From assembly GCF_020731355.1 (NCBI RefSeq), contig NZ_JAJFZK010000002.1, forward strand, positions 62,001-126,000: a DNA stretch of 64,000 nt, given 5' to 3'. Positions 20,980-54,112 of the stretch are shown one piece after another. The notes under the pieces were generated by a model. The model did no database searches. It worked only from the letters and a program-made list of their open reading frames with translations, and was not told the origin of the DNA. A program made the position numbers and the translations under genes. This DNA is from Bacillus sp. REN16 (GTDB lineage: Bacteria; Bacillota; Bacilli; Bacillales; Bacillaceae_L). How positions within the stretch are numbered: position 1 is the first letter of the stretch; every line of letters starts with the position of its first letter.

Positions 20980-21684
20980 TTATCTCTTGTCTGTATGTTT
21001 TGTAAAATAATCACCAATAAATTGAATGATAAATACCAAAATTAGTATCGCGACAGTCGCAATAAATGTAATAATCGGCTTGCCACCTTGGAATCCATAT
21101 AAGTATGCAAAATGCCCTAAACCACCGGCACCGATAACACCAGCCATAGCAGTGAAGCCAACTAATGAAATCGCCGTTACAGTAATCCCTGATATTAATG
21201 CCGGTAACGACTCTGGAATTAATACCTTATAAATGATTGTTGAGTTTTTCGCTCCCATTGAATGAGATGCCTCGATAACACCTTTATCAATTTCACGCAA
21301 AGCAATTTCAACCATTCTCGCATAAAATGGTGCAGACCCAATAATAAGGGAAGGTAACGCAGCATTTGGCCCTAACATTGAGCCCATTACAATTCTTGTA
21401 AAAGGTATCAATAATACAATTAATATAATAAATGGAATTGAACGAAAAATATTAACAAGTGCAGATACAATTCGATTGATCACCGAATTTTCCCAGGCGT
21501 TTCCTTTGTCCGTTAAGAAGAGAACCAGTCCTAAAAATAAACCGATGATAAAAGTTGCAAGCACTGAAATAGCAGTCATATATAAGGTTTCTAATGTTGC
21601 CTCCCAGAGATTCCCCCAGTTTAAAGCCTGATAATCATTCACCTGTTTTTCCCATTTAAGTAGTTCTTGAAATTGTTCAAGCAT
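20980..21684 (-). CDS. metI: Methionine ABC transporter permease (MetI; called MetP in B. subtilis)
   Basis: The ATG at 21684 is seven bases after GAGGTGAT; the in-frame TTG at 21690 is less well placed. The product is 234 residues with five to six membrane helices. The binding-protein-dependent permease (EAA) loop is ALREIDKGVIEASHSMGAKNS. It overlaps the end of metN by eight bases, so translation is likely coupled. It works with MetN and MetQ to import methionine. Confidence 0.93.
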   Translation of the reverse strand: MLEQFQELLKWEKQVNDYQALNWGNLWEATLETLYMTAISVLATFIIGLFLGLVLFLTDKGNAWENSVINRIVSALVNIFRSIPFIILIVLLIPFTRIVMGSMLGPNAALPSLIIGSAPFYARMVEIALREIDKGVIEASHSMGAKNSTIIYKVLIPESLPALISGITVTAISLVGFTAMAGVIGAGGLGHFAYLYGFQGGKPIITFIATVAILILVFIIQFIGDYFTKHTDKR

Positions 21685-22702
21685 TTTCAATCACCTCGGC
21701 TTCTACTCGTTGGAGTCGAATAAATTCAATGGCTGAAGTGATTTCCTCAACATCACCAGTAAGATGGATAAACAATGTTCCATATGATCCATTTTGGGTT
21801 TGCGAGATCTTACCTTGTAAAATATTCACTTCTACATTGAAGTCCCTGATTAGTCGGGTGATTAAAGGCTTTTCAGCATCCTCCCCGATAAAAGTAAGCT
21901 GAACGACTTTTCCATCTGGGAAATGATCAAGTAAATGCTCAATCGTTTCTTTCGTTTCCTCAGGATCTGATACCTGTTGTACAAAACTTTTAGTAATGTT
22001 TGCCTGAGGCTTCTTGAATACATCAAGTACTAGCCCTTGCTCGACAATTTTGCCACTTTCCATCACGGCAACACGGTGACAGATTTTACGAATAACATGC
22101 ATTTCATGTGTAATTAATACAATCGTTAATCCTAATCGTTCATTGATGTCAACAAGCAAGTCCAAAATAGAGTCCGTTGTTTGCGGGTCTAGTGCAGACG
22201 TTGCCTCATCACAAAGTAATACCTTTGGGTTATTAGCAAGTGCTCGTGCTATGCCCACCCTCTGCTTTTGACCGCCACTTAGCTGTGAAGGATAAGCATC
22301 TTCTCTTCCTTCCAGACCAACTAACTTAATTAGCTCTGTAACTCGTGCTTCCCGTTTCGCCCTTGGAACTTTTGCAATTTCTAGCGGAAACGAAATATTT
22401 TCTTTAACTGTTCGCGACCATAAAAGGTTGAAGTGCTGAAAAATCATGCTAATTTCTTGACGGGCGTCACGTAATTCTTTTCCTTTAATGGTTGTAATAT
22501 CATGACCAGCTACCGAAATTGTTCCATCCGTAGGTGTTTCAAGTCCATTCAGCAAACGAATGAGCGAGCTTTTACCGGCACCACTGTAACCGATGATTCC
22601 AAAAATTTCACCTTCATTGATTTCTAAATCAACGTCCTGAACAGCAGTAACAGAATTTGTTTTTGTTTTATATATCTTCTTTACATTTTTTAGAGTTATC
22701 AC
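21677..22702 (-). CDS. metN: Methionine ABC transporter ATP-binding protein MetN
   Basis: The start is the GTG at 22702, about seven bases after AGAAGGTG; the frame extends further into the repeat upstream but without reason. The product is 341 residues. Walker A is GYSGAGKSS, the signature is LSGGQKQRVGIARAL, and Walker B is VLLCDEATSALD. The C-terminal ~90 residues form the NIL/ACT-like domain that binds methionine and inhibits transport in E. coli MetN. The 5' leader carries an S-box riboswitch and, after its terminator, the structured repeat at 22730-22844. Confidence 0.94.
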   Translation of the reverse strand: MITLKNVKKIYKTKTNSVTAVQDVDLEINEGEIFGIIGYSGAGKSSLIRLLNGLETPTDGTISVAGHDITTIKGKELRDARQEISMIFQHFNLLWSRTVKENISFPLEIAKVPRAKREARVTELIKLVGLEGREDAYPSQLSGGQKQRVGIARALANNPKVLLCDEATSALDPQTTDSILDLLVDINERLGLTIVLITHEMHVIRKICHRVAVMESGKIVEQGLVLDVFKKPQANITKSFVQQVSDPEETKETIEHLLDHFPDGKVVQLTFIGEDAEKPLITRLIRDFNVEVNILQGKISQTQNGSYGTLFIHLTGDVEEITSAIEFIRLQRVEAEVIENA

Positions 22703-22729
22703 GTTTTCACACCTTCTATCCTCAGAAAT

Positions 22730-22844
22730 GCGCAAGGCGCCTGCCTATCGGTGACAAGCATAAGACGAGCGCTGACAGAAGGTGTATTTTACCTTCCGAA
22801 GCGATTGGCTTATGACCTCGAACCGATGGGCATGGAGCTAGACA
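22730..22844. repeat. Structured interspersed repeat, copy A
   Basis: It runs from GCGCAAGG to GGAGCTAGACA and is the relative of 53238-53354. Predicted stems on either strand: TGCCTATCGGT (22742-22752) with ACCGATGGGCA (22822-22832); CATAAG (22759-22764) with CTTATG (22809-22814); CGCT (22770-22773) with AGCG (22800-22803); GAAGGT (22778-22783) with ACCTTC (22791-22796) around a seven-base loop. It lies between the S-box terminator and the metN start. Confidence 0.85.
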
Positions 22845-22914
22845 TCTTAAAAAGAAAACTATGCTTAGTTTGTGCGATATAGTAAATAAATAAAGCTATT
22901 AAGGGCTATTAATT

Positions 22915-23079
22915 GAAAAAGCCTTTCTGCAATTAGGAGCAGAAAGGCACAATATCGTAATCCTTCCTCTCATTTTCCAAAGCTTTGCTTTGTGTGAATT
23001 GGCACCTTTTCAACTAATTGTTGACGGTTGCTGGGTTTCATCGGGCACATCCCTCCACCACTCTAAATAAGAGTTATCA
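22915..23079 (-). ncRNA. SAM-I (S-box) riboswitch of metNIQ
   Basis: On the minus strand the region has the S-box core: an ACTCTTAT P1 arm, AGAGTGGTGGAGGGA, GATGAAACCCAGCAACC, the GGTGCCAATTC region, and the closing ATGAGAG arm. It ends in an intrinsic terminator (22915-22949) with arms GCCTTTCTGC and GCAGAAAGGC and a T run. When SAM is bound the terminator should form and switch off the importer. Bases 22845-22914 downstream hold no other recognised element, and 23080-23188 between the riboswitch and metY show nothing further. Confidence 0.93.
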
Positions 23080-24537: not shown

Positions 24538-24683
24538 TTAAAAACCCTCTTCAATAAGAAGAGGGTGTATGTACAGTTTCTCTTCTTATCTCTCAGACAT
24601 ATGTCTGATGGATTTAGCACCGTGTAAATTAACCGGTTGCCGGGCTTCATAGGGCCATTCCCTCCGCCACTCTTGATAAGAGT
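24538..24683 (-). ncRNA. SAM-I (S-box) riboswitch of metY
   Basis: On the minus strand TCTTATC, AAGAGTGGCGGAGGGA, CTATGAAGCCCGGCAACC, CACGGTGCTAAATCC and the closing GATAAGA give the complete S-box order. The P4-like hairpin is CAGACATATGTCTG. The terminator ACCCTCTTC / GAAGAGGGT with T run (24538-24566) ends it. Bases 24684-24872 up to the MFS gene hold nothing I can name. Confidence 0.93.
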
Positions 24684-53178: not shown

Positions 53179-53237
53179 GATTTTACAATTACAGATATTC
53201 GTATGTCAAATCAGTTTTGTGACTGACAAAAAGAAAA

Positions 53238-53354
53238 GCGCAAGGTGCCCGTACATCGGCGACAAGCACAAGACAAGCGCTGACAGAAGGCGATGTTTGC
53301 CTTTCAGAAGCGATTGACTTGTGACCTCGAGCCGATGGCACCTGGAGCTAGACA
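53238..53354. repeat. Structured interspersed repeat, copy B
   Basis: The relative of 22730-22844, with the same boundaries GCGCAAGG and GGAGCTAGACA. Stems: AGGTGCC (53243-53249) with GGCACCT (53337-53343); ATCGGC (53255-53260) with GCCGAT (53331-53336); CACAAG (53267-53272) with CTTGTG (53318-53323); CGCT with AGCG; AAGGC (53287-53291) with GCCTT (53299-53303) around a seven-base loop. Three pairs are changed on both sides compared with copy A. Confidence 0.85.
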
Positions 53355-53390
53355 GAAAAAAGACGTTGGCGTTGTTTTGCCAAACGTCTG
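53354..53390 (-). terminator. Terminator of the ASCH gene
   Basis: AGACGTTGGC (53361-53370) pairs with GCCAAACGTCT (53379-53389) with one bulge, followed on the minus strand by TTTTTT. It abuts the structured repeat copy B. Confidence 0.8.
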
Positions 53391-53398
53391 CTTGTTCC

Positions 53399-54112
53399 TT
53401 ATTTATGATAGGTGTATACGGAACTCCATTCGTGGATGATATTTGTTGCCAAAAAGGCTTCTTTCGCATATTTTTCCGCTTTTTTCATGAGTTCTTTTTC
53501 ATCTATCTTTCCCTCATAGTCGGGGTTCACTTTATAAAACATGAAGGTGTTTGCCTCACTTTGACGAAACCGAACAAATGCCACAAAATCCTTCTCTTTA
53601 TAAACGGCATAAAAATAATCGGTTGCCTGTTCAAACAACTCAAACTCGGTCCAATTTCTAACCTTGTATCCTTCCGCTTCCGTTATTGGAACCAGGTGCA
53701 AATCTATGTTAACATCTGTAAAAATGTCTGTAACCTTGAAATGCTCCACTACAATAATAGTATCTTCATTTAGCTCAAACCCGTCATTATACAAAGGCTT
53801 CTCCCAGCTAAAAATATGATCCTCGATAAATTCATCTAAAGTCGAATTCTCACCATTTGCTATTCGTTCTCCCACTTCACCTTGAATTTCACCAAATCGA
53901 ATTTCATAAAAATCGGTAATTTGGATGTTTGCTTTATACTCATTACGCTTAGTAAATACCTGAATGATATCGCCAGCTTCACTTTTTTCCTCGCTTGGCA
54001 ATAAATCATACCAAACCTTTGGAGTACAGGTAACAGTCTTCACACCACGCAGTACTTCTTCTAGCAGTCTTTCATCATATTCATCACGACCCCAAAAGTC
54101 GATTCGTTTCAT
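53399..54112 (-). CDS. ASCH-domain protein with a C-terminal extension
   Basis: The 237-residue protein begins MKRIDFWGRDEYDERLLEEV. The first ~130 residues look like an ASCH fold (GVKTVTCTPKVWYDLLP, then GDIIQVFTKRNEYKANIQITD, with the acidic EFIEDHIFSWEKPL region). ASCH domains resemble PUA domains and are thought to bind RNA or modified nucleosides. The remaining ~100 residues (NIDLHLVPITEAEGYKVRNW onward) I do not recognise. It starts at ATG 54112 and stands alone. Confidence 0.62.
   Translation of the reverse strand: MKRIDFWGRDEYDERLLEEVLRGVKTVTCTPKVWYDLLPSEEKSEAGDIIQVFTKRNEYKANIQITDFYEIRFGEIQGEVGERIANGENSTLDEFIEDHIFSWEKPLYNDGFELNEDTIIVVEHFKVTDIFTDVNIDLHLVPITEAEGYKVRNWTEFELFEQATDYFYAVYKEKDFVAFVRFRQSEANTFMFYKVNPDYEGKIDEKELMKKAEKYAKEAFLATNIIHEWSSVYTYHK

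Follow-up and report, generated by a model that had tools for sequence, protein, structure and literature searches.

The window, that is, the whole stretch of DNA that we analysed, comprises 64,000 nucleotides of the Bacillus sp. REN16 genome. It holds two copies, A and B, of a short structured repeat that we interpret below as mobile, together with the following neighbouring features:

22724..22844, plus strand: copy A of the putative mobile repeat, made up of the previously described 22730-22844 and the 5' box AGAAAT
22845..22857, plus strand: 3' tail and A-rich stretch adjoining copy A (TCTTAAAAAGAAA)
21677..22735, minus strand: ABC-transporter ATPase ORF, its 5' region at copy A
22967..23073, minus strand: SAM riboswitch upstream of the ABC-transporter gene, from an Rfam scan of the window
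53232..53354, plus strand: copy B of the putative mobile repeat, with the anatomy of copy A
53355..53383, no strand assigned: A-tract and stem-loop behind copy B
stem 53383-53366, minus strand: terminator-like site with tail CGTCTTTTTT behind the minus-strand gene 53399-54112, from a consensus scan

Copy A lies antisense between the SAM riboswitch, with its terminator-like site (22948-22921), and the ABC-transporter gene, whose product we take to be MetN-like. The mechanically called start of this ORF overlaps the 5' box of copy A, and the true start is therefore probably nearer 22700. The riboswitch beside copy A has a second SAM riboswitch about 1.5 kb upstream of it (window 24583-24682, minus strand, 88.6 bits). 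Copy B corresponds to a covariance-model match in the REN16 genome (C12:115222-115364). On the minus strand the order at copy B is gene 53399-54112, terminator-like site, T-run, and element; the consensus scan found one such site there versus 0.4 expected.

Both copies are present where a preliminary description of this DNA had placed them, and they align with each other from end to end. Their boundaries are shared, as it had proposed, except that the unit begins about 6 nt earlier than described, at AGAAA[A/T] (22724 and 53232). The design of four stems held up as well: stems 1-4 occur in both copies, each has an apical loop of 7 bases on an apical 6-pair stem, and the three double changes between them (CATAAG/CTTATG to CACAAG/CTTGTG, AAGGT/ACCTT to AAGGC/GCCTT, and CGGT/ACCG to CGGC/GCCG) were confirmed. 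Copy A thus reads as 5' box AGAAAT, terminal stem with a G·A mismatch, stems 1-4, and 3' box GAGCTAGACA. More generally, the short element opens with the box AGAAA[A/T]GCG and a terminal stem in which the G·A mismatch is kept, continues with stems of about 7 and of 6 pairs, followed by the internal loop GACAAG/ACCTCGA and a stem of 13 pairs that contains two purine mismatches, and closes with the apical 6-pair stem, its 7-base loop and the 3' box AGCTAGACA. With respect to the terminal inverted repeats of MITEs, the ends form an imperfect terminal stem (alignment columns 17-28 with 116-127) that is part of the long hairpin.

Is the fold itself maintained by selection? Plus-strand folding of copies A and B was compared with 200 dinucleotide shuffles, none of which matched it (z -6.2 and -5.0). 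The minus strand is also better folded than its shuffles (z -4.4 and -4.2), and therefore folding energy alone cannot pick the strand. The preliminary description had argued for selection from the two copies; selection was borne out, although two copies are insufficient to establish it and it is 35 and then 98 copies that show it. The first alignment (A2) contains 35 REN16 copies aligned on sequence only, with a structure that we defined on a single copy. Of its 1217 cells, 97.0% are paired; 16 of 35 pairs are changed on both sides, 59 cells are changed on both sides versus 10.6 in shuffles, and the score is reached by 0 of 500 shuffles. For the second alignment (A5), 98 matches drawn from 79 named loci were fitted to the model, which favours paired letters; of its 3339 cells 95.8% are paired, and 29 of 35 pairs are changed on both sides. 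Its covariation score is 0.554, versus 0.179 in shuffled controls, which do not preserve relatedness, and at most 0.125 in slid controls, which do; again 0 of 500 shuffles reach the score. Complete exchange of a stem is seen, as in ATCGGC/GCCGAT to AGCCCC/GGGGCT and others. Together with the folding shuffles, the covariation in A2 and A5 rules out chance or a plain repeat. In 7 of the 35 rows of A2 a variant, GGCTAGACC or GGCTTAGACC, removes most of the CATAAG/CTTATG stem, which argues that this stem is not strictly required.

The choice of strand comes from wobble pairs. At one position of the fold the pair is G·U in 25 of 35 REN16 copies and in 62 of 98 others; on the opposite strand it is A·C. 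On the plus strand, A5 has 125 G·T versus 12 A·C cells and A2 has 47 versus 10, with 6 of these A·C cells in stem-breaking variant copies. Because G·U-type pairs outnumber A·C mismatches there, the folded strand is most likely the plus strand, as RNA or single-stranded DNA, and folding of the minus strand is disfavoured by both counts. The original suggestion of RNA or extruded DNA is accordingly narrowed: a single-stranded plus strand, RNA or DNA, is favoured, whereas a cruciform would use both strands.

The element is abundant and widespread. BLAST finds 41 matches in the REN16 genome, copy A itself counted, and the covariance model finds at least 95 at E <=0.001 (150 of 1098 candidates scored). 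Of these 95, 71 score at least 67 bits and the other matches are weak or incomplete; one match repeats another on the reverse strand. Across the order Bacillales, with at most 10 candidates scored per genome, 222 of 299 genomes have matches, which fall in 83 of 116 genera, and 77 genomes have none. An exact 16-base word of the element occurs in at least 117 stretches, mostly in named genera of Bacillales, including Rossellomorea, Cytobacillus, Metabacillus, Siminovitchia, Peribacillus, Neobacillus, Niallia, and Fredinandcohnia. Carriage on plasmids or phages was considered and set aside, as copy A gives no BLAST match among 72,556 plasmids and 50,697 phages; one Anoxybacillus plasmid and one Cytobacillus plasmid do each carry a diverged relative. 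One locus (L082:2552-2776) holds an expanded relative of 225 nt, in which additional hairpins occupy the apical arm and the conserved internal loop; it could be a larger ancestor or a domain variant.

Comparison of orthologous sites indicates that the element moves, since genomes of the same genus lack copy A and four more short copies at such sites. For copy A, a compact site without the element is found in 7 of 8 same-genus genomes, the eighth being too diverged to judge, and AGAAAACTATG of its 3' flank is found in 6 of the 7 unoccupied sites. Unoccupied sites were likewise found among the relatives fetched for the short copies at C2:165599 (six relatives), C2:158971 (four), C23:237941 (four), and C23:255454 (three), and in two relatives for an extended copy of 185 bp at C2:171359. 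Alignments running through the C23:255454 site show it occupied in some relatives and empty in others. Because the unoccupied sites come from relatives that are about 80-88% identical, the ancestral state is one that we infer.

The junctions are asymmetric. A profile of 82 5' flanks and 87 3' flanks gives a fixed 5' end behind an A/T-rich flank of about six bases; the 3' junction is short and variable, with a few free bases and then an A-tract, which is present already in unoccupied sites. Copy A alone looks as if it had a 5-bp AGAAA repeat on both sides. Among the 91 single copies from all loci fetched, however, there is no excess of direct repeats (5-mers, 8 vs 7.0 expected; 4-mers, 21 vs 16.2 expected), and no target-site duplication is detectable. 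Of the 36 REN16 copies caught by the patterns of our script, 15 have a stem-loop that starts on the 3' side within 30 nt, where plain-letter shuffles give 1.6, and 1 has such a stem-loop on the 5' side, where shuffles give 1.2; in 9 of the 36 a T-run follows the 3' stem-loop on the plus strand. Among relatives the signal is weak (7 of 37 copies vs 4.2 shuffled). Read on the minus strand, such targets have the order hairpin, T-run, element. Copies are found in both orientations and in many gene contexts; between tandem genes, antisense outnumbers sense by 26 to 7 (p 0.0013), as judged with crude ORF calls on 52 copies, 30 of them top-scoring in REN16 and 22 from regions that we chose in a genome of the same genus, G302. 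As a separate observation, AAACTANGT occurs 3-4 bases from the 3' box in 10 of 100 single copies, far above background; some of the ten are probably from one genome. It resembles GAAAACTAGATA, a word of the G302 rRNA spacer L392 discussed below.

Does the element belong to a named RNA family? The preliminary description did not know it as one, and for the short form the Rfam comparison agrees: it has no match at gathering score, the scan of the window yields two SAM riboswitches alone, and 22650-22920 at E up to 10 gives three unrelated sub-threshold matches that do not include RF01690. A known Rfam family as the identity of the short form is thus rejected at threshold. An extended form of about 185 bp, by comparison, carries the Bacillaceae-1 RNA (Rfam RF01690) as a 67-nt module on the same strand. 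Of 18 sources scanned, 16 contain RF01690 above its gathering score. Extended copies of the element account for five (L113, L186, L187, L191, L199), and the remainder are further repeat designs with the module, of which two (L181, L196) seem to share the element's end boxes. The motif CACRTCCTGTG occurs 59 times in the REN16 genome; its reversed control occurs 0 times. Other settings of the module are of interest in themselves. A different repeat design (GCCTCCGGCGGATGCC...) carries it at six or more places in REN16 (L184, L188, L189, L194, L197, L198), and yet another holds two inverted modules within about 220 bp (L180:1526-1743; C2:195852-196015), with similar sequences in L182, L183, L185, and L195. 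PMC2864571 lists RF01690 among certain RNAs, as one that is probably not cis-regulatory, and PMC4333381 calls it of unknown function and voices doubt about its strand. Its place on the plus strand of the element in extended copies bears on the doubt expressed in PMC4333381.

The element also forms head-to-tail arrays, in which 76 of 117 junctions have a 4-nt spacer. One array (L250) mixes short and extended units. Its two extended units have a common 5' module yet different 3' halves, which suggests, from these sequences, exchange between array units.

Diverged relatives are found next to rRNA genes. In G302, at sites fetched because the model had matched them, diverged sense relatives scoring 46-56 bits start directly behind the 3' end of 23S at 12 sites and of 16S at 2 sites. 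Of the two 16S-23S spacers fetched, one (L392) has a Bacillaceae-1 RNA between a copy of the short element and 23S; the other (L400) has no Bacillaceae-1 RNA at threshold. In Cytobacillus oceanisediminis a copy of 114.4 bits follows the end of 23S, which was read by eye at a short contig end, and in Anoxybacillus amylolyticus a copy of 33.1 bits lies behind 23S, with further tandem end boxes read by eye. The 62-63-nt 23S-5S spacers of two Priestia megaterium plasmids give no element match, and because of this the element may have entered rRNA operons secondarily. The short 23S-5S spacers of the Priestia plasmid rRNA operons L412 and L413 do contain AAAAGCGTAAGCTTT, which is like the 5' box alone and perhaps represents a remnant or a seed.

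We propose, with a probability of roughly 0.7, that copies A and B are non-autonomous mobile repeats of about 120 bp whose folded plus strand is recognised in trans. In single-stranded form the plus strand folds as a single long hairpin of four stems, its internal loops conserved. According to this proposal, an enzyme acting in trans would recognise the folded strand and the end boxes GAAAAGCG ... AGCTAGACA and join it to A/T-rich DNA flanked by hairpins while that DNA is transiently single-stranded. The Bacillaceae-1 domain is optional and gives the form of about 185 bp, and related copies are found in rRNA spacers. What moves the element? Surveys of RVT_1 and Y1_Tnp across 299 Bacillales genomes identified no mobilising enzyme. 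Our first guess, a tentative one, is a transposase of the HUH (Y1) type that works on single-stranded DNA; an RNA-templated route is a clearly less probable second guess, and we assign the rest of the probability to no particular route. Replication-arm counts of copies in five genomes do not establish a replication-strand bias: they are 32:15, 23:15, 10:10, 9:10, and, for G302, 23:18 after removal of 13 of 61 rows of rRNA type; their origins are unproven, a DnaA motif lying within 4 kb at one of six contig starts, that of G290, a genome with 2 matches that was left out of the counts.

A special case of the proposed mechanism is a REP/RAYT-type system, in which a REP-associated Y1 transposase moves single-stranded copies. 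Y1_Tnp is found in 181 of 222 element-positive versus 41 of 77 element-negative genomes (p 3e-6, uncorrected for kinship), and REN16 itself gives 6 divergent Y1 matches, including one that contains stops, which we take to be RAYT-like. One of the six (L363; G000:C13:29465-29920) has a Bacillaceae-1 element just upstream, the sole such neighbour among 20 Y1 loci scanned. Yet none of 28 Y1 loci from 12 genomes has a copy of the element within 1.5 kb, so adjacency of the RAYT kind was rejected. Among 92 strong-match genomes (best E below about 1e-25, our own cut), 15 have no Y1_Tnp match, including the same-genus genomes G126 and G228, which carry copies. The element is also 3-6 times the length of a REP (20-40 bp in the sources as far as consulted). 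We regard this special case as possible but rather doubtful.

A retroelement would explain other features. In such a SINE-like scheme, a processed rRNA-spacer RNA or a read-through hairpin transcript would be reverse transcribed from T-tract primers, namely the T-run behind minus-strand terminator hairpins; the mobile form would be plus-strand RNA and the rRNA spacers would serve as master copies. The plus-strand fold with its G·U pairs, the fixed 5' end and short, variable 3' junction with A-tract, the T-tract and hairpin targets, and the relatives that follow 16S and 23S in G302, or 23S in C. oceanisediminis and A. amylolyticus, all fit. However, RVT_1 is not associated with the element (113 of 222 element-positive vs 41 of 77 negative genomes) and is missing from 40 of the 92 strong-match genomes, so that a reverse transcriptase link was rejected. 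The A-tract need not be an RNA tail because it is already in unoccupied sites. Apart from C. oceanisediminis (114 bits), the rRNA copies score low (46-56 bits in G302, 33 in Anoxybacillus) against up to 167 for dispersed copies, and the two Priestia megaterium spacers have no match. We consider this route unlikely, and about equally so the idea that the element is a host regulatory or rRNA-processing RNA, multiplied and kept for 3'-end stabilisation, antitermination, or rRNA maturation. Such a function would account for the strongly conserved fold and for copies that immediately follow 16S and 23S rRNA or precede stem-loops. Against it, presence at the same gene varies among relatives, copies occur in both orientations and many gene contexts with antisense commoner, and 77 of 299 genomes have no match. 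Selection on the fold may act on mobility rather than on host function.

How does the element compare with known systems? The consulted parts of PMC3446304 describe bcr1-bcr3 as MITE-like intergenic repeats, two bcr families as having a conserved secondary structure, and bcr copies as present in mRNAs of two strains (84 of 165 and 62 of 155). Like bcr1-bcr18, the element is an intergenic repeat, and it has a conserved secondary structure as two of their families do. On the published descriptions it differs in being found across an order, while bcr1 has been termed, in the accounts consulted, specific to the B. cereus group, and in having no target-site duplication and a module in common with RF01690. 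In REP/BIME systems with RAYTs, the hairpin is recognised and target duplication is not known to occur. The element is like REPs and BIMEs in being a palindromic intergenic repeat, often in arrays, but it is much longer and has complex internal loops, and Y1 genes are not flanked by it. Group IIC introns insert behind the T-run of terminator hairpins. For the element, 3' stem-loops stand well above the shuffled level in REN16 copies and only weakly so in relatives. It is about 120 bp long, has no link to a reverse transcriptase, and matches no intron model in the window, where Rfam finds the two SAM riboswitches and no group II ribozyme core. The relation to Bacillaceae-1 RNA is one of insertion, the 67-nt module lying in the extended element on the same strand; the short element is without it, and the passages on RF01690 in PMC2864571 and PMC4333381 are silent on mobility. 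Bacillus tandem-repeat surveys, in the part of PMC8161180 consulted, deal with classes of 52 nt and 20-21 nt. Our literature search, which included sequence words of the element and covered the main texts of open-licence papers, found no description of it. The kind, small non-autonomous repeats like bcr1, MITEs, or REPs, is already known. What is new is the combination of a single-strand fold, A-tract/stem-loop targets, absence of target duplication, the Bacillaceae-1 module, and rRNA neighbours.

Small repeats are usually dismissed as MITE relics. This element keeps an elaborate single-strand fold through compensatory changes while moving, which would tie its mobility to recognition of the folded strand. 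An orphan Rfam RNA, Bacillaceae-1, gains a genomic setting from it, and the relatives directly behind 16S and 23S could affect rRNA maturation. A more far-reaching idea, which we consider improbable, is that the element is a bacterial analogue of SINEs, a structured rRNA-spacer RNA that would spread at the RNA level across an order of Firmicutes with Bacillaceae-1 as an interchangeable domain. Because its copies are polymorphic, both the mechanism and the effect on the host are directly testable in soil bacilli.
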